From contig JANQQI010000059.1 in the NCBI GenBank assembly GCA_028285085.1, forward strand, positions 1 to 37,735: 37,735 nucleotides of DNA, read 5' to 3'. Both the position numbers and the translations under genes were made by a program. The stretch comes from Saprospiraceae bacterium. Its GTDB lineage: Bacteria > Bacteroidota > Bacteroidia > Chitinophagales > Saprospiraceae. Positions 4,349 through 14,033 of this stretch are shown here, piece after piece (the first letter of the stretch is position 1; every line of letters starts with the position of its first letter). The notes beneath the pieces were generated by a model that did no database searches, had not been told where the DNA came from, and saw only the letters and a program-made list of their open reading frames with translations.

Positions 4349-6109
4349 ATGCCAGAAATACCAACCACCACTTTTGCCAGTGCCTTGGCTTTACATCAAC
4401 AAGGACAATTTCAAGCTGCGGAGCAGCAATATTGTGAATTAATCAATACTTCCGAACCCGAATCTCGTGTTTATACGCATTTGATCAATGTTTTGCTGCA
4501 GCAACAAAAGGTAGAAAAAGCCATGCATTGGCTTAAGCAAGGATTACAAGATTTTCCGGTGGATCCCGATTTATTGCTTACCTCAAGTGCAATTGCTTTC
4601 AATACCGGCCAGATTGCAGAATCTATGGCGCAGGCGCGTAAGGTGTTGGACTTGGCCCCCCACCGACTCGAAGCATGGGTGCATTTGGGTAACTTATTGA
4701 TGCAACAACAAGCCTCGACGGAAGCATTGCAGTTGTATCAGCGTGCCATTCAGGTGCACCCGATGCAACCAGATTTCCATTTTAATTTGGGCTATCTCTA
4801 CGCCATGCAAGGGCAAACCGATGCCGCCATACAGGCTTATGAAAAGACTATTGAGCTGGCACCAGATTCTTTTGGCGCATTACAACAGCTCGGGTATATT
4901 TCGCTACAGTTGAATCGCTACGAAGACGCCATCAAATACTATCGGCAAGCATTAGCTATTAAACCTGATTTGCCAGAGGTGAAAAAACAATTGGGGATGG
5001 CGCTACATTTTGTAGGGCAAATCGAAGCGGCCCAATCGCTCTACAAAGAACTACTCCAACAGGATGAAAATAATGTCGAGCTGCTCACCTTACTAGCGAA
5101 TGCACATCGCGACCTCGACGAAGGCGAGCTGGCCATGGAAAATTACCAAAAAGTACTCTCGCTGGATCCTCAAAATGTGACGGCTAAGCATAATGTAGAT
5201 CGCATGCAGAGCTTGCGCATTCCGCAGTGGCACTTTGATATGCTCGCGGACCAGGCCCGGAATGATGCCTACGACGCAGCAATTCGTAAGTCAGCTCCCG
5301 GTCGAAGCGTTCTGGATATCGGAACCGGTTCTGGTTTACTCGCCATGATGGCGGCGCGCGCTGGCGCCACATCCGTGACGGCTTGTGAAATGTCGGCACC
5401 GATTGCCCAAGCGGCACAACAAATTTTGGACGCCAACAATATGGCCGACAAGGTACAGCTTCATAATAAAAAATCGACCAAGCTAAAAGTGGGTGAGGAA
5501 ATGTCGGCACCAGCAGATTTGCTTGTTTCGGAGATTCTTGATGTTGGCTTATTGGGTGAAGGGGTTATTCCTTCTCTGAGGCACGCAAGAGAAAATCTCT
5601 TGTCGCCAGATGCAAAACTCATCCCTGCCGCCGCTCAGGTCAAAGGTTATTTATTTCACTCCGAACACCATAGCAAAATCAATCCCATAAAGCATATTTC
5701 AGGTTTTGACCTTAGCTCGTTCAACCAATTTCGTGATCAAGGCGTCTACATCCACGCCTACACGCGCTTGTTGCCACACGAATCGATGAGTGATGTTATC
5801 CCGATTTGGTCTATCGATTTTTATCAGCTGCCTCCGGCTGCTGCCGAAACACAACCCAATCTTCATCAGATTCCTTTGACCGCTACTCAGGATGGTATTA
5901 TCCACGGGATTTTCTTCTGGTTTGATTTGGATCTAGACGAAGAGATTAAGCTCTCAACTGGCCCAGAGGGCGAAATGATCCATTGGGGGCAGGCGGCCTT
6001 CTTTTTTGATGAGCCACTGGAGGTGAAGGCCGGAGAAGCCTTGACTTTAATCCTGGCTCAGTCGGATATGCGCTTATTATTCAGCATAAAAAAAGCCGAC
6101 CAAAATTGA
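4349..6109 (+). CDS. TPR protein fused to a PRMT-like (protein arginine methyltransferase) domain
   Basis: This is a 586-residue protein without signal peptide or membrane segment, so it is probably cytoplasmic. Residues about 5-285 are a row of tetratricopeptide repeats (for example PDFHFNLGYLYAMQGQTDAAIQ). Residues about 300-586 are a class I methyltransferase: SAM-binding motif I VLDIGTGSG at 320-328, acidic post-I position in TACEMS, then SEILDVGLLGEG. In that last motif E395 and E404 are nine residues apart, as in the double-E loop of PRMTs that grips the substrate guanidinium. A PRMT-type THW loop is present as I544-H545-W546, followed by GQAAFFF. The order TPR then PRMT, and the DVGLLGEG wording, are closest to PRMT7/PRMT9. 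The enzyme is inferred to methylate protein arginines; the substrate is unknown. The alternative is a methyltransferase with another substrate. Confidence 0.8.
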   Translation: MPEIPTTTFASALALHQQGQFQAAEQQYCELINTSEPESRVYTHLINVLLQQQKVEKAMHWLKQGLQDFPVDPDLLLTSSAIAFNTGQIAESMAQARKVLDLAPHRLEAWVHLGNLLMQQQASTEALQLYQRAIQVHPMQPDFHFNLGYLYAMQGQTDAAIQAYEKTIELAPDSFGALQQLGYISLQLNRYEDAIKYYRQALAIKPDLPEVKKQLGMALHFVGQIEAAQSLYKELLQQDENNVELLTLLANAHRDLDEGELAMENYQKVLSLDPQNVTAKHNVDRMQSLRIPQWHFDMLADQARNDAYDAAIRKSAPGRSVLDIGTGSGLLAMMAARAGATSVTACEMSAPIAQAAQQILDANNMADKVQLHNKKSTKLKVGEEMSAPADLLVSEILDVGLLGEGVIPSLRHARENLLSPDAKLIPAAAQVKGYLFHSEHHSKINPIKHISGFDLSSFNQFRDQGVYIHAYTRLLPHESMSDVIPIWSIDFYQLPPAAAETQPNLHQIPLTATQDGIIHGIFFWFDLDLDEEIKLSTGPEGEMIHWGQAAFFFDEPLEVKAGEALTLILAQSDMRLLFSIKKADQN

Positions 6110-6743: not shown

Positions 6744-7808
6744 TTAAAATTTCGGACAATTCACTTTCTCTCGGGTATAAGCCGGATGGAAGTAGATGAG
6801 TGAAACTTCGAAGGCGCCTCTGGCATTATTGGCTTCGGTCAGTGAAGAAGTCGTAATATCATAACTCAATCCTAAGTTCCAGCGCTCCATTTCAAGAATA
6901 GCAGCAACGATCAACGCGTCAAAGTGCTTTCCGCCAACGGTATTGGTCATTCGGGTCCACAAACCAGCACGAATAGCCACCTCATACCAATCGTGATTGG
7001 AGTAGCGGAAATTTGCACCAAGTGTCGTTTCAAATGATCCCAATTGTTGCATCACTTGAGCGGCCGGTAACAAGCTTAGTTCGGAGGTAAAGGGAATTTC
7101 ACCGCCTGCGTGAGCAATCCAGCGGCGACCAAGTTTTTCATCACCACCCAAAAGCGAAATATTAGGCTCATTCAGATGATTAAAAGCTCCACCAACGTAA
7201 AAACTGGCATTGTCTCCAAATAATGCATAGTACATAAGACCAGCACTAAAATCTAAATAAAGGTCAGTCGTCAAATCGCCATCACCTATTCCGGGTTCCT
7301 GAGAAGGTAATCCTGTATCTGGGAAACCTGTGCCCTGATTATACTGTGATGAAAACCACAAGCGATTACTCACGCGATGCTGTCCAAAACCCAATTGCGC
7401 TCCCGCAATCAGAAATTGGTCATCATTCCGGTAGCGGCCATCGTTCATTTGCTTCAGGTAAGCAAAGGAGAGCTGCCCACGGTTGATCGTAAAGTCAGCA
7501 TCACCACCTTGATCATACATGCCACTGACACCAAAGGCCAGATAATCATTTGCCACAATATTGTAACGCATATCAAAACCTGCGGCTACCGTGCGGAAAG
7601 GCTTCGAGCCCAATACGCTTGACCACTGATCGCGATAGTTGGCGTGAAAGCGCCAACGCCCCTCAAAGACACCCGTCATCGCCGGGTTCAGAGTAGATGG
7701 ACTGGCATAAAATTGAGAAAAACGCGGGTCTTGAGCTTGCGCATCTGTAGGCCATAGCAAGACAGCCAAAATAAACAAGCTAAAATAGGTAGTAAACGTT
7801 TGTTTCAT
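6744..7808 (-). CDS. PorP/SprF family type IX secretion outer-membrane protein
   Basis: A protein of 354 residues from the chosen start. It has a signal peptide (MKQTFTTYFSLFILAVLLWPTDAQAQ) and then the family hallmark DPRFSQFYASPSTLNPAMTG. The rest alternates like a beta-barrel (FGVSGMYDQGGDADFTINRGQLSFAY; LGLSYDI) and ends near YFHPAYTREK. PorP/SprF proteins are outer-membrane barrels that associate with the T9SS and receive particular clients, typically those with a type B (gliding-type) C-terminal domain. The gene starts 66 bases after the stop of the giant SprB-repeat gene on the same strand, so it is probably its dedicated partner. An in-frame ATG at 7832 lies inside a -7 box (7830-7837), so the ATG at 7808 is preferred. 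A terminator follows at 6639-6668. Confidence 0.9.
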   Translation of the reverse strand: MKQTFTTYFSLFILAVLLWPTDAQAQDPRFSQFYASPSTLNPAMTGVFEGRWRFHANYRDQWSSVLGSKPFRTVAAGFDMRYNIVANDYLAFGVSGMYDQGGDADFTINRGQLSFAYLKQMNDGRYRNDDQFLIAGAQLGFGQHRVSNRLWFSSQYNQGTGFPDTGLPSQEPGIGDGDLTTDLYLDFSAGLMYYALFGDNASFYVGGAFNHLNEPNISLLGGDEKLGRRWIAHAGGEIPFTSELSLLPAAQVMQQLGSFETTLGANFRYSNHDWYEVAIRAGLWTRMTNTVGGKHFDALIVAAILEMERWNLGLSYDITTSSLTEANNARGAFEVSLIYFHPAYTREKVNCPKF

Positions 7809-7829
7809 ATTATTGAATTGACGATATTT

Positions 7830-7837
7830 CAAATATA
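7830..7837 (-). promoter_or_regulatory. candidate -7 box TATATTTG before the PorP/SprF gene
   Basis: Read on the minus strand this is TATATTTG, an exact match to the Bacteroidota -7 consensus TAnnTTTG. A TTGACA lies about 23 bases upstream inside an inverted repeat (TGTCAA-AA-TTGACA, 7861-7874), which could be the -33 element. It would let the PorP/SprF gene be transcribed separately from the adhesin gene upstream, and it argues for the ATG at 7808 as start. Confidence 0.45.
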
Positions 7838-7874: not shown

Positions 7875-10800
7875 TCAACGTAACAAAGTTGTATTTCCTT
7901 TAAAAGTTTCTGTAAATCCATCGATGTATTCGGCTTCGACATACCAGACATAAACCCCTGGATTCATTTCTTTGCCGCGGAAGGTACCATCCCAGCCTAC
8001 GGTCTCATCGTTGACTAGAAAATCTCCAGTTTCGAAAACCAAATTCCCCCATCGATCATATATGCGGAAGAGGTTAACGACAGTGCCTTCTTTTCCGTGC
8101 ACGAGTAATAGATCGTTGGTTCCATCATCATTCGGTGTGAAGCCTGTAGGTACAAGTACTCGACGGTCTTTATTTACGCGAACAATGATCTCATCGGTGC
8201 CTTCACACCCATTTTCATCGATACCATATAATTCGTATGTAATCGTATTCGAAGGAATCGCCCATGGATCCGAGCAATCAAAATCATTAGCCTGACAGAA
8301 TAAAGTCCCTTCGTAAGGTGCTGACCAGCTGTATTGCACTGAACCTACCGTATTAGTAGATGATGGTCCAAGACGAATACTATCTCCCAGTTCAATCGTT
8401 ACTTCTTCTGGCCCAGCATCAACTTCAATTGCTGGTGGTGTGTCTACCTCAAAACTGGTGGACCAATCACAATCTTCATTATCCAAAACATAAAGGGTAT
8501 AATTTCCTGCGATTAAGCCTACTTGTACACTAGAGCCATTGTATTCTTCGCCATTAAGGCTGTAACGATACGGTGGCGTACCTCCTTCCAGCATCACTTC
8601 CACTCGGCCATCTCGATCACCGAAGCAAGTCACATCCGTTACAGTTAGCGTAGCTGAAAGCGGTGGTGGCCCTCCAACGACGGCCTGCTCGATTAATATA
8701 CAATCGTTAGCATCCGTAATGGTCACTTCGTATTGGCCGGAAACCAGTTCACTGAGGTCAGCTTCTTCGGCTCCGGTATCCCAGGCGAAAGTATAACCGG
8801 GTGTACCTCCCGTTACTTGCGTACTGATCCGTCCTTCACCATTGCCGCTACAGAGATTATTCTCGATGGCAAAATCAGCTTGAATGGCTGTGGGTTGGGT
8901 CACTTCAACCGATGTCGTGGTTGTACAACCTTCGCCGTCAGTAATCAGAACTGTGTAAACACCAGCATTAAGGTCGATAGCTTCCGCCGTTATTTGATTA
9001 TTAGCAGCATTATCCCACTGATAAGTATAGTTTCCATTTTCACCTTGTACATCAACCACGGTAGCAGCACCGTCCGTTCCACCGAAGCAACTGACGGCCT
9101 CCGTAGCCGTACTGGCTTGTAACTCAGCAGGCTGATCGAGGGTCACAGTATTGGTACCGGTACAGCCCTGAGCATCGGTAATGATAACGGTATAGACAAA
9201 TTCTGCCAATAGGCCGCTTACGGCGTTATTATTAGCTTGACCACCACTCCAATTGTAGTCGTAATCATTGATTTGCCCCGTTCCGATACCTCCATTTACG
9301 GTAATCACTTCTGCCGTACCATCAGAATCGCCAAAACAGGTTGGATCCTCGGTCACTACAGCAGCTTGTATTGGTGGTAATTCATCGATTTGCAAGGCCG
9401 TAGTAAATTCACAATCGTTAGCATCGGTCACCGTCACTTCATAGGTGATAGCATCCAAACTGCTCGTCACGCTAGTTAGATCACCATTACTCCATTCGTA
9501 AGTATAATTTCCAACACCACCGGCAGGGATAACTTCCGCCGCCCCGGTTCCACTATCAAAACAGCCCACAAAGGTTTGACTAACCTGGGCACTGACCGCC
9601 GTAGCTGGCTGATCGATACTCGCCTGGGCGGTAGCCGTACAACCGTTAAGATCAGTTACCGTTACCATCACATTACCGGCAATTAAGTCCATTGCCGTTT
9701 GTGTATCCTGATTGTCTACATCATTCCAACTATAAGTATAAGGCATTGTTCCTCCACTGGGCACTACCGTTGCCGTTCCGTCCGCACCGTTAAAACAAGA
9801 CACCTCAGTGAAAGTCGTAATGGCAGTTAAGGTATCCGGCTGGGCAATAACCGCCGTAGCCACTACTGTACAACCATTACCATCCGTCACCGTCACTTCA
9901 TAATTACCAGCGGTTAAGCTAACTGCCGGATTTGTAAACTGGTTATTATCATCATTCCACATGTAGCTGTAGCTACCGGGTCCAGTACCACCACTGGTCA
10001 TAACCATTACACTACCATCATTGAACCCGAAGCAAGAGGCCTCACTAGGACTAACCGCAGTGACCTCAAGTGGAGCAGGAGTAGTGACGTCGATACAGGC
10101 CGTGGCCGTACAACCATTAGCATCGGTTGCGACTACACAATATTGTCCGGTAGCCAGCCCTGCAATAATACTTGTGCTTTGTGTGCCCGGGTCATCCCAG
10201 AGGAAAGTAAAATTACCAGCGCCACCACTAGCAATTACGGAAGCAGTTCCGTCCAGGGTCGTGCTACAACTGGTTTGAGTACTGGAAATTTGTAAATCTA
10301 TTGCAGGTGCTTGTGGCACCATAACTTGAGCAATTTCGGAGCAACCATTCGCATCCGTCACGGTTACAAAGTGCATTCCCGGTGTCAATAAGTCAGCATC
10401 GGGAGTGATATCATTATTATCCCAGAGATAGGTATAACCTCCGGCACCACCTGAAGCGATGACGTTGGCCGTACCATCGTTAGAATCTGAGCATAAGGTG
10501 GCAGTAGCTGAGGTTACCAGGTTGATTGCCGAAGGTTCATTGACCGTAATACAATCTGAAATAGTACAATTATTCACATCAGTTACCGTCACACAATAGG
10601 TTTGGGCAATCACACTGGAGACAATAGGACCATTTCCTCCACCATTGTCCCAATTGTAAGTATAACCTCCATTACCGCCGACAACAGCCGCTACGACTTG
10701 TCCATTCATTCCACCATTACAACTTACATCGGTAGCATCCAAAGTAAGCGCTAAGACTGGCGGTTCGGTGATATCAAAAAGTTGTGTTATAACACAGCCG

Positions 10801-13800
10801 TTTGCGTCGGTGATAATCACAGAGTGCGGGCCAGCCTCATAACTTACTGCATTATCTCCCATTTCACCGTTATCCCATTGAATGGTATAAGGCGCAACTC
10901 CTCCACTCGGTAAGGCCGTCGCGGCACCATCAACTGCTCCAAAACAACTCGCCGGTGAAGGCGTAACTACCGCGGAGAGCACCTCAGGTTCAAATACATC
11001 AACGGTTTCACTGGCACTACAACCATTGACGTCAGTAGCAACGACCGTGTACCCCCCAATACAGAGGTTACTTGCGGTATTGTCAAATATCGCTGGTACT
11101 GTATTCCAAACGTACGTTATACCACCATTACCACCGGTAGCTAAAGCAACAGCGCTTCCGTCACAATCGCCATTACAATTGACCGAGTCGACGGTGGTTT
11201 GTAAAATAATGCTATCGGGCGCATTGATGGTAAAAGCAATGGAATCCGTACATCCAATGGCATCAACCGCAATGACATAGTGAAATCCCGCCGAAACGTC
11301 GGAAATATTTGGACCCTGTGGCAGTCCACCATCCAAAGCATAGGTGACTGGTGATTGGGCACTAGTAGCAGAAAGAAAGACCAAACCATCTGTGGTATTC
11401 CAACAACTTGGTGAAACCGTAGACGTAGTATCAATGGTCATCGAACAAGCCAGATAAGTACACTGTATATTAGCTTCTTCGGCCGGGCAATTTAAAGTAA
11501 CCGATACCGCACGCACCAAAATATCAACAATATCGCCATTGACTAAGCCACTCACCGTATGCGATAGCAGACCATTCGAAGGAATCCAAGTAGCACCGCC
11601 ATCCAGGCTTACTTCGTAACTTGAAGCACCAGGAACGCTCCCCCACTCTACGGTCAAATTACCGCTATCTTGAGGACCACAGGCCAACACTGGTGCAGCT
11701 AAGGCGTTGAGTACAGTTACCTCTAAGGTCTCCGTATCGGTACACCCAAAAGCATCGACCGCATTAAGCGTATAAACAGTGGTCACATCAGGCGAGGCCA
11801 CAGGATCAGGACAGTTTGTACAGGATAAACCCGTTGACGGGGTCCAGAAATAAGTGAGTTCATTTTCGTTATTAAAAGTAATCGACCAATCCACGATATT
11901 CCCGCCGAAACCATTTTGATCATCGGCTACAGCCAAGGTCCAAGCGCCATTAATGGGGCTACCATTGAAATCGGCCCAGTTGCCTTCCGGCAAAAAGTCA
12001 CCAGTAAAGGGTGAGGTTCCACTATTGATAGGGATAGTAGCAGTTGGGGTGAAACAGGTACCAAGGTAGCCATCGCCGCCGCCACCGTTATCGGTGGACA
12101 GCTCAATGACGGCGCCATTGGGTGCAATTAAGCGAAGTTCGATGTCCGCATTGAAAGTATGCTCGATGTTCACGCAAACCGAAGCGATTTGACTATTTGC
12201 ATCCGTCAACGTTAATGGATTGATAGAATTGATGTCTAGTACAGAGTTGAAAGGATTACCGGGTGGATAGATATCATTATCGAACTCTACGCCGATAAAA
12301 CTTTCAAAAGTAATTTGCTGCTCTTCCAGCGGCGTTGAGGGTTCACCGTCGAGGCTCGCCGCGTCGCCAACACAAAGGCTGGTATCTTGCAGCGGTGTCA
12401 GGTTTTCATTACACTCGTAGCAATCAGGATGGGTCGGTGGTAAAACGTTGACAACAACCGTCGTATCATTAGAACAGCCAAAATCATCCGTCACGCTGAA
12501 CGTATAGCTAGGTGATCCGGCGTTCTCCAATACCGCTACAATAGAATCCGGCTCGTAGAACACGATGGAAGGATTATTATCCCAGGCAAAGTCCACAATT
12601 TCCGGGGTAAAGGTTTCTACATTAGGGTATAACGAAGGGTCAAAGCCAATACTCCATTCGAAAATCCAACCATTATCAATTCCCCAAAGGTCTTGCACCG
12701 TCAAGGTCCATTCTCCATTGAGCGGGCATCCAAGAAAATTATCTAAAGTTTCAAAAGCATTATAATCTCCCGGAGGGAGTGTTTGTACCCCGGTATTTTG
12801 CCAATATTGAGTCCAGTTGCCCGTAGTGGCATCCGGTGTCCAGCAATAATCGTAGCCTACACCTTGCAGTGGTGGGTCCATACCCTCATCTGCCTCATTG
12901 GGTTCTCCGAGGAAAACTTCGCCCTGGAATACTTGATCTTGCAGCACTACAGTCGTTCCATTTGGACAGCTCAAAGTAATTTCGAGATCGTGCATCCAGG
13001 AGTGTTCCATATTCACACAAATGCCGATCAAATCCGAAATATTGGTGAGCACCTGTCCGGGTGAAAAGTCGGCAAAGGCAATAGATGTTTGATAAGTTGC
13101 ACCAGTACCATCCGGTAGAGGCAAGGAATCCGAACGAACCCCCTGGGTTTGGAAAGACCCTTCGGTGGGGGTCACAGAGACCTCGTAAGTCGAATCAAGG
13201 TTGGCCACCAAGGCATGCAAACTCAAAGTATCCCCCGCACAAACTTGCTCGGGAATATCTCCAGCCAATTCAAAATCAGGATAAGTCGAAACCCGTACAC
13301 GTTGACTAATAAAGTTGGTGTTTTTACAACCGAATTGATCTTCGATCGTTAATTGGACGATGTAGCCACCCGGTTCTTGGTAAACATGGGAAGTATTTGG
13401 TCCGACGGCCATGTTACCATCTCCAAAATCCCAGGTAAAAGAAGAGGTGAGATCCGAGTGATTGTAAATAACGCCATCTTGCGGATAGCTACCGGCGGCA
13501 TTAAGGTAAACTCGATCGCCGGGGCAAATATCAATGTAGCCAGTATCCACTGGTTCAACGACTGGATCTGTACTGGTTAAATTCGCTAAAATCGTTTGGC
13601 AAGCCGCAATACAATTGATATCTGCACTCCAACCTGCCGTTTCATCCGTAGCATCGGAAGTAAAAGTGACCGTCAAACAACCAGAGGTATTGGCGGCAGT
13701 AGCTTGGATAATAAAAGGCGCACCGGGCGTAAAATCATCCGAACAACTCAACTGCGTCGCACTTACATCTGTCCCATCGTAGAAGCAGAGCAGATCGCCA

Positions 13801-14033
13801 GCGCCCAAGGTCACACCGGAAAAGACTAACTGGATATGCGTACCCGTCGAATTATCCGAACAAATGGTCGTAGTGAGATCCTCATTAGGTCCATAATCAC
13901 TATTGCCACCACCACTGTCCGAGAAAAAGCCGCTACAGTCCGTAATCGGACTACCATCCATAGGATAGGTTTGCGCATTCGTCAACAGGGGGCAAAAGGC
14001 AGTGAGAAAAAGACAAATTGTAAAGATTCGCAT
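7875..14033 (-). CDS. giant T9SS-exported adhesin-like protein with SprB repeats and gliding-type C-terminal domain
   Basis: A 2052-residue protein with a signal peptide (MRIFTICLFLTAFCPLLTNAQ). Modules in order, with approximate residues: CUB-like (25-140); PKD domain with TWDFGDG (170-250); two proprotein-convertase P-domain-like modules (290-460 and 575-725), each with the CVNxEHxxxxDxExxLxxPNG pattern; an FN3-like domain (780-855); 13 SprB repeats (865-1865); an Ig-like segment; and a gliding-motility-associated C-terminal domain (1960-2052) with FTPNDDGTNDLL, YDRWGNLVF and WDGTFRG. The C-terminal domain marks it as a type B client of T9SS. SprB-type proteins are surface adhesins moved in gliding or used for attachment. 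There is no catalytic motif. The PorP/SprF gene follows directly. Whether this cell glides cannot be told from the window. Confidence 0.9.
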   Translation of the reverse strand: MRIFTICLFLTAFCPLLTNAQTYPMDGSPITDCSGFFSDSGGGNSDYGPNEDLTTTICSDNSTGTHIQLVFSGVTLGAGDLLCFYDGTDVSATQLSCSDDFTPGAPFIIQATAANTSGCLTVTFTSDATDETAGWSADINCIAACQTILANLTSTDPVVEPVDTGYIDICPGDRVYLNAAGSYPQDGVIYNHSDLTSSFTWDFGDGNMAVGPNTSHVYQEPGGYIVQLTIEDQFGCKNTNFISQRVRVSTYPDFELAGDIPEQVCAGDTLSLHALVANLDSTYEVSVTPTEGSFQTQGVRSDSLPLPDGTGATYQTSIAFADFSPGQVLTNISDLIGICVNMEHSWMHDLEITLSCPNGTTVVLQDQVFQGEVFLGEPNEADEGMDPPLQGVGYDYCWTPDATTGNWTQYWQNTGVQTLPPGDYNAFETLDNFLGCPLNGEWTLTVQDLWGIDNGWIFEWSIGFDPSLYPNVETFTPEIVDFAWDNNPSIVFYEPDSIVAVLENAGSPSYTFSVTDDFGCSNDTTVVVNVLPPTHPDCYECNENLTPLQDTSLCVGDAASLDGEPSTPLEEQQITFESFIGVEFDNDIYPPGNPFNSVLDINSINPLTLTDANSQIASVCVNIEHTFNADIELRLIAPNGAVIELSTDNGGGGDGYLGTCFTPTATIPINSGTSPFTGDFLPEGNWADFNGSPINGAWTLAVADDQNGFGGNIVDWSITFNNENELTYFWTPSTGLSCTNCPDPVASPDVTTVYTLNAVDAFGCTDTETLEVTVLNALAAPVLACGPQDSGNLTVEWGSVPGASSYEVSLDGGATWIPSNGLLSHTVSGLVNGDIVDILVRAVSVTLNCPAEEANIQCTYLACSMTIDTTSTVSPSCWNTTDGLVFLSATSAQSPVTYALDGGLPQGPNISDVSAGFHYVIAVDAIGCTDSIAFTINAPDSIILQTTVDSVNCNGDCDGSAVALATGGNGGITYVWNTVPAIFDNTASNLCIGGYTVVATDVNGCSASETVDVFEPEVLSAVVTPSPASCFGAVDGAATALPSGGVAPYTIQWDNGEMGDNAVSYEAGPHSVIITDANGCVITQLFDITEPPVLALTLDATDVSCNGGMNGQVVAAVVGGNGGYTYNWDNGGGNGPIVSSVIAQTYCVTVTDVNNCTISDCITVNEPSAINLVTSATATLCSDSNDGTANVIASGGAGGYTYLWDNNDITPDADLLTPGMHFVTVTDANGCSEIAQVMVPQAPAIDLQISSTQTSCSTTLDGTASVIASGGAGNFTFLWDDPGTQSTSIIAGLATGQYCVVATDANGCTATACIDVTTPAPLEVTAVSPSEASCFGFNDGSVMVMTSGGTGPGSYSYMWNDDNNQFTNPAVSLTAGNYEVTVTDGNGCTVVATAVIAQPDTLTAITTFTEVSCFNGADGTATVVPSGGTMPYTYSWNDVDNQDTQTAMDLIAGNVMVTVTDLNGCTATAQASIDQPATAVSAQVSQTFVGCFDSGTGAAEVIPAGGVGNYTYEWSNGDLTSVTSSLDAITYEVTVTDANDCEFTTALQIDELPPIQAAVVTEDPTCFGDSDGTAEVITVNGGIGTGQINDYDYNWSGGQANNNAVSGLLAEFVYTVIITDAQGCTGTNTVTLDQPAELQASTATEAVSCFGGTDGAATVVDVQGENGNYTYQWDNAANNQITAEAIDLNAGVYTVLITDGEGCTTTTSVEVTQPTAIQADFAIENNLCSGNGEGRISTQVTGGTPGYTFAWDTGAEEADLSELVSGQYEVTITDANDCILIEQAVVGGPPPLSATLTVTDVTCFGDRDGRVEVMLEGGTPPYRYSLNGEEYNGSSVQVGLIAGNYTLYVLDNEDCDWSTSFEVDTPPAIEVDAGPEEVTIELGDSIRLGPSSTNTVGSVQYSWSAPYEGTLFCQANDFDCSDPWAIPSNTITYELYGIDENGCEGTDEIIVRVNKDRRVLVPTGFTPNDDGTNDLLLVHGKEGTVVNLFRIYDRWGNLVFETGDFLVNDETVGWDGTFRGKEMNPGVYVWYVEAEYIDGFTETFKGNTTLLR
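8438..11438 (-). repeat. 13 tandem SprB repeats within the adhesin gene
   Basis: About 3.0 kb encode 13 consecutive copies of a unit averaging 77 residues (about 231 bases). Typical wording is SCFGxxDGTAxVxxxGGxxPYTYxW, then LxAGxYxVTVTDANGCT, and a closing P that starts the next unit. The copies are clearly diverged at the DNA level, so this is an old protein-level repeat array and not a recent expansion. Units 1, 12 and 13 at the two ends differ most from the consensus. Confidence 0.85.

Follow-up and report, generated by a model that had tools for sequence, protein, structure and literature searches.

A bacterial TPR protein with a single PRMT7/9-type methyltransferase module from Saprospiraceae, and its relatives

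The analysed stretch of DNA (hereafter the window) comprises 37,735 nucleotides of a contig from a Saprospiraceae bacterium. It carries, at 4349-6109 of the forward strand, an intact open reading frame with an ATG start, encoding a protein of 586 amino acids in which, according to Pfam and PDB matches and the structural model, a TPR array is fused to one PRMT7/9-type methyltransferase module; all features of this protein listed below lie on the same strand. The TPR array (aa 9-290, 4373-5218) consists of eight model helix pairs and a capping helix and makes up half of the protein. It is matched by Pfam TPR families (best E value 1.1e-35, the best stretches shown falling within aa 82-276), and a TPR profile built from the repeats of this protein and of its paralogue gives eight matches. 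The TPR-catalytic junction (aa 273-293, 5165-5227) is co-linear with PRMT9 and has a proline 20 residues before WHF. The SAM-binding, Rossmann-like domain (aa 294-425, 5228-5623), delimited by model strands and helices and by alignment with PDB chains, contains motif I, VLDIGTGSG (aa 321-329, 5309-5335), and the double-E loop SEILDVGLLGEGV (aa 394-406, 5528-5566, with E395 and E404), located by the family alignment and that with PRMT7 and PRMT9. The PRMT beta-barrel with its oligomerisation subdomain (aa 426-586, 5624-6106) is recognised by fold and by the PRMT_C family PF22528, which scores 57.8 bits over aa 441-569 (cut-off 27, E 1.7e-15). Within it lie IHW (aa 544-546, 5978-5986), equivalent to the THW loop, and GFDLS (aa 452-456, 5702-5716), in which G452 is present in 84, F453 in 82 and D454 in 78 of 84 aligned loci, and which, by alignment with PRMT1, would belong to the putative dimerisation arm. 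Both Pfam and the model give one catalytic module in the 586 residues. No NCBIfam family exceeded its cut-off among the matches listed (best 25 of 84 for the whole protein, best 25 of 48 for aa 293-586).

The sequence-only reading had proposed a PRMT7/PRMT9-like catalytic domain behind the TPRs, and this proposal holds, as PRMT9 and PRMT7 come out on top both by sequence and by fold. In a phmmer search of PDB chains with aa 293-586, the best matches were PRMT9 chains (8rbk, 1.6e-45; 7rbq and 6pdm, 1.1e-44), followed by the PRMT7 chains of mouse (1.7e-41), T. brucei (1.6e-26) and C. elegans (2.1e-23), with PRMT6, CARM1 and the PRMT1 group at about 1e-21 and weaker; the best matches were not to a small-molecule methyltransferase family. 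A profile of four family members reached 8rbk at 2.3e-72, and this alignment sets in ahead of the catalytic module, where the last TPR ends. The AlphaFold2 model, computed from a 30-row family alignment (mean pLDDT 94.1, pTM 0.77), has the eight helix pairs and cap followed by the SAM-binding domain and then the barrel, with the oligomerisation subdomain present. Foldseek against the PDB ranks PRMT9 first and PRMT7 next: 8rbk is aligned over 445 columns (E 2.9e-25, TM 0.52 by query) with an rmsd of 8.0, which means that the whole protein is not rigidly superposed, and the T. brucei PRMT7 structure 4m36 gives a TM of 0.76 by target length. Since other PRMT9 entries are aligned over about 320 columns, the longer match of 8rbk probably includes the TPRs.

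The SAM motif, E395 and E404 within SEILDVGLLGEG, and IHW are all found at the residues which that reading had named. Compared with the six PRMT family motifs as set out in the available excerpt of PMC12925635, motif I (VLD/VGxGxG) is matched by VLDIGTGSG, with G325 and G327 present in all 84 aligned loci; the Post-I motif (V/I-x-G/A-x-D/E) by VTACE at aa 343-347, with E347 in 83 of 84; and the THW loop (THWxQ) by IHWGQ, with I in place of T. The double-E loop has its two glutamates nine residues apart, aligned with both glutamates of PRMT7 and PRMT9, and its inner MG is replaced, as it is in those two enzymes. Motif II (E/K/VDII) corresponds to ADLL ahead of VSE, with the aspartate and hydrophobic residues kept and the letters different, and motif III (LK/xxGxxxP) to LLSPDAKLIP, where P426 is invariant (84/84) and the glycine is absent. 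On the sequence and fold features tested the protein is thus a member of the PRMT family, with four of six motifs matched. In the profile alignment E395 and E404 are each paired with a Glu of mouse PRMT7 (chain residues 144 and 153), and judging from the alignment with PRMT7 and PRMT9, these two residues and H545 should lie near the pocket.

The likeness to PRMT9 does not stop at the catalytic module, as in the profile alignment homology extends across the TPR-catalytic junction. In 87 of the 94 bacterial rows with enough upstream sequence to be counted, the W of WHxxM follows a proline at a distance of exactly 20 residues (58 of 64 rows when the set is thinned), while the best count at any offset in any of 500 shuffles was 19 of 94 (13 of 64 in the thinned set); PRMT9 has its proline at the same distance from WH. 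An alternative spacing of 22 was found in 0 of 95 rows and was dropped, the count by offset giving 20. The seven rows lacking this proline include four of those linked to SznF-like genes (L056, L089, L092 and L101, see below), and L012 has it although it is class I-like, possibly as a chance match. A fixed connector together with a similar cap helix would be hard to obtain by two independent fusions, and we therefore read them as one shared fusion: from the aligned sequences, the joining of TPRs to the catalytic module looks common by descent to the bacterial family and PRMT9.

As to the distribution of the family, the earlier statement that PRMT-like enzymes are rare in bacteria proved too strong; patchy would be the better word. 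In the class of Azospirillum, 30 genomes out of 240 were matched in a profile search at E <= 1e-12 (counting the centre genome and a second carrier known beforehand), and a single scan of genome contigs gave 300 confirmed stretches, of which the best 80 were retained, with titles including Roseivirga, Lewinella, Azospirillum, Niveispirillum, Dongia, Oceanospirillum, Actinomadura and Acidobacteria. Single-sequence searches found the gene in 3 of 100 genomes drawn from the window's family, its own included, with no match in G310, the other genome of the same genus in that draw, and in 2 of 296 genomes of its phylum, again with its own included. The second of these, L012 (321-2457), is a stand-alone class I-like PRMT adjoining a formyltransferase-like gene; among solved chains it is best matched by 3r0q, listed as PRMT 4.2. 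Four of the eight plasmid records with a match are annotated as "50S ribosomal protein L11 methyltransferase", one as "tetratricopeptide repeat protein" and one as "methyltransferase domain-containing protein", the remaining two having no listed gene. No viral relative was confirmed among 120 pattern matches. The genome of the window itself carries a second TPR-PRMT gene (contig C83, 6873-8618, reverse strand; rows L002 and L108), whose product of 581 amino acids is 37% identical to the window protein and has eight TPR matches. The two copies lie in different branches of the tree and hence do not stem from a recent duplication.

In a tree of 73 rows the bacterial proteins together with PRMT7/9 part from the class I enzymes (PRMT2, PRMT8, plant PRMT and L012) with support 100/99, and in a second tree of 67 rows, from which six long or odd rows had been removed, this split has support 100/100, with the outgroup attached elsewhere. 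In the former the window protein belongs to a clade of 45 rows (99/91) that contains no SznF-linked and no eukaryotic row, and it lies nearest to L022, L016, L019, L021 and L035. In the latter PRMT9 and T. brucei PRMT7 form a pair (68/87) from which mouse PRMT7 stands apart, yet a single eukaryotic PRMT7/9 clade uniting the three rows is not rejected (p-AU 0.21). The two trees differ on the root and on the place of PRMT9 and give no direction of transfer.

The window gene stands alone, with a gap of 570 bases upstream and a convergent neighbour downstream. This neighbour side of the locus includes a PorP/SprF gene (6744-7832, reverse strand), adjoined by a gene (7875-14033, reverse strand) for an SprB-repeat protein of 2052 amino acids with a CHU_C type IX sorting domain. 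The neighbours were considered as partners and rejected. In G367, a genome of the same family, the flanking VIT/VWA and PorP/SprF genes have the same arrangement, as does the long repeat ORF beyond PorP/SprF (SprB-like by eye), but an unrelated ORF of 551 amino acids lies between the two flanking genes, and G367 carries its PRMT on a different contig. G310, a genome without a PRMT match, also has the PorP gene with the long repeat ORF next to it. The same flanks with a different ORF in the gap mark the window PRMT as an accessory gene without a fixed partner.

We suppose that the window protein is an arginine methyltransferase acting on a protein held by its TPR coil, and assign to this reading, which draws on sequence and a predicted model, a probability of roughly 0.62. 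Three points speak for it: the protein has a TPR array, its catalytic pair is intact, and the SznF-linked branch described below is, in contrast to it, poor in TPRs. The superhelix of eight repeats would hold the partner protein, and the single PRMT7/9-type module would use SAM to methylate an arginine of this partner at its guanidino group; the enzyme would probably be a homodimer formed through the PRMT_C arm and located in the cytoplasm. The positions of the TPR groove look only marginally less variable than the others (20 aligned rows, by eye); as evidence of peptide binding this is weak and was set aside.

Likeness to PRMTs is by itself no proof of a protein substrate, as the superfamily includes a probable free-arginine branch. 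In 7 of 97 rows (L056, L084, L089, L092, L096, L101 and L122, from Pantoea and Methylobacterium plasmids, Actinomadura and Acidobacteriota) the PRMT-type gene adjoins one for an iron-containing redox enzyme. The two of these neighbours that were tested (at L096 and L089) match Haem_oxygenas_2 above and Cupin_2 below the cut-off, a domain pair which we take to be that of SznF. According to the available text of PMC11705231, SznE/StzE is an arginine-guanidino methyltransferase acting together with SznF/StzF, and according to an excerpt of PMC12637814, another N-methylarginine pathway was discovered with the help of the SznE sequence. By analogy, the SznF-linked relatives probably make N-methylarginine from free arginine. 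On the plasmids of Pantoea dispersa (L096, 8259-13477) and Methylobacterium indicum (L101, 9932-13989) small annotated clusters combine the iron-containing redox enzyme with a Rieske protein, the PRMT-type methyltransferase and an ATP-grasp enzyme, possibly representing a pathway for an N-nitroso or related natural product outside Streptomyces. The window protein could, in the same way, methylate free L-arginine or another guanidino small molecule, with the TPRs serving for assembly or for docking to a pathway, but this appears unlikely. At most one TPR match is found in all seven SznF-linked rows vs. 11 of the 90 unlinked ones (Fisher p 2.5e-6, to be taken as a guide only, the rows being related, the flank lengths different and the TPR profile self-built), which suggests that TPRs go with contexts other than SznF. 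The five linked rows kept in the 67-row tree form a group with the unlinked L055 (96/81) to which the window protein does not belong, and neither the window nor the regions read around L002, L014 and L015 yielded an SznF-like gene.

A second alternative to methylation of protein arginine is that a protein methyltransferase of the PRMT fold now acts on a residue other than arginine, for which the variation of the double-E loop gives some grounds. E395 is kept in 80 of the 84 aligned loci and replaced by Asp in four, H545 and W546 are kept in 79 and 82, respectively, while E404 is kept in 55 and is Pro in the other 29, including all of the four with Asp. These Pro-type loops (SELINVGMLAP, for example; L043, L063 and L088 are examples of the loci) occur, by title, in Azospirillum, Niveispirillum, Dongia, Nitrospirillum, Rhodospirillaceae and unclassified Proteobacteria, and the HW and SAM motifs stay in them; the nine such loci kept in the 73-row tree form one clade (100/100), an alphaproteobacterial branch. 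The guanidinium clamp is, consequently, not constrained everywhere, and the fold is no guarantee of canonical chemistry in every member. The window protein, in turn, retains both glutamates and HW, and for it a non-arginine target is quite improbable. That it is an idle scaffold, in which the TPRs work and the PRMT part is structural, is hardly credible: although the TPR array takes up so much of the chain, few columns of the 84 aligned loci are as conserved as those of the SAM and catalytic motifs, the ORF is intact and two copies are kept in the genome.

If, as we prefer, the substrate is a partner protein, candidates for it in related loci are secreted tail-collar proteins. Phage tail-collar genes lie near the TPR-PRMT at L021, L030, L035 and L052, the nearest at 22 to about 2200 bases, and in Oceanospirillum and Roseivirga thermotolerans the adjoining collar gene is the only collar match in the genome. 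Proteins of the Asp_Arg_Hydrox family (Asp/Asn hydroxylases) are encoded at L021, L024, L035 and L052, two other 2OG-Fe(II) oxygenases at L030, a sulfotransferase at L021, and formyltransferase-like genes at L030 and L035. These five loci are a minority of the 84 and were noticed after the fact, and as the genomes were partly chosen after the linkage had been seen, no p-value is given for the enrichment. L021, L024 and L035 fall with the window protein into one clade of seven rows (93/89, 73-row tree). The window locus itself, as a counterpoint to the protein-substrate reading, is without collar or hydroxylase partner genes; its genome has a tandem collar pair (contig C85), three further collar matches (C140) and a single Asp_Arg_Hydrox gene (C125), and no PRMT gene shares a contig with any of these.

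The Oceanospirillum locus (L035, 3-15835) comprises Asp_Arg_Hydrox, a PhyH oxygenase, two methyltransferase-like genes (one with Pfam matches below the cut-off, the other recognised by eye), a formyltransferase-like gene, the TPR-PRMT and the tail-collar gene, followed by long ORFs that are repeat-like by eye; its make-up suggests an island of genes for modifying a surface protein. One more methyltransferase-like protein near a TPR-PRMT is encoded at L121 (9285-10226); it has no Pfam match and by eye is similar to that at L035 (3419-4714). In several Dongia-type loci small flagellar-looking genes stand directly upstream of the TPR-PRMT (for example, L043, 6344-6955); of two tested, one had a sub-cut-off match to a flagellar rod C-terminal family and the other none.

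Tentatively, and with more doubt than confidence, these observations may be drawn together as follows: a large unnamed bacterial TPR-PRMT family would modify proteins and share one TPR-catalytic fusion with animal PRMT9; PRMT9, perhaps also PRMT7, would owe its origin to gene transfer between bacteria and eukaryotes; and in some bacteria the family would work within islands, together with Asp/Asn hydroxylases, a sulfotransferase and formyltransferase-like enzymes, that decorate secreted tail-collar surface proteins. Bacteria may then carry an uncharted protein-modifying system with ancestry common to animal PRMT9. Arginine methylation by true PRMTs would be an overlooked bacterial modification, with a family built like PRMT9 in roughly one in eight of the genomes sampled from the Azospirillum class; this family would also supply simple single-module enzymes for work on PRMT7/9, and with it the origin of PRMT9 would become testable.

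Among the matches listed from the open-access literature, we found no title or opening of an abstract that deals with a bacterial TPR-PRMT or with a kinship between PRMT9 and bacteria. The available parts of PRMT reviews (PMC12925635 among them) present PRMT-catalysed arginine methylation as belonging to eukaryotes, and that of PMC10418467 mentions PRMT1 in prokaryotes in a passing remark. A bacterial review (PMC10117894, likewise in excerpt) describes Rv1988, which is secreted and host-directed, and two predicted PRMTs of a Legionella strain, of unknown function. Compared by description only, these resemble the window protein in reported or predicted arginine methylation. The relatives of SznE/StzE type, whose kinship to SznE we infer from gene context, are PRMT-like, lie beside SznF-like genes and match the same profile, but differ in having at most one TPR match, a separate branch and biosynthetic neighbours. 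By context the window protein, with eight TPRs and no SznF-like gene found in the window, is not SznE-like. With the type III enzyme PRMT7 it shares the double-E and HW loops, as seen in the mouse protein; the T. brucei PRMT7 chain is matched as one module, as is the window protein, and mouse PRMT7 as two. PRMT7 is not known to have TPRs. Like the window protein, the animal type II enzyme PRMT9 has TPRs ahead of the catalytic module, the start WHFxMLxDxxRN of this module, an ETVDAGLFGEG-like double-E loop and the same junction length, and it is the best fold match. It has, in the available description (PMC10984984), three TPRs and two tandem modules, whereas the window protein has eight TPRs and one module, and HW in place of the CW of PRMT9 module 1. 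Lacking the second tandem module, the protein is not filed as PRMT9; it is a single-module, TPR-fused enzyme of the PRMT7/9 type.
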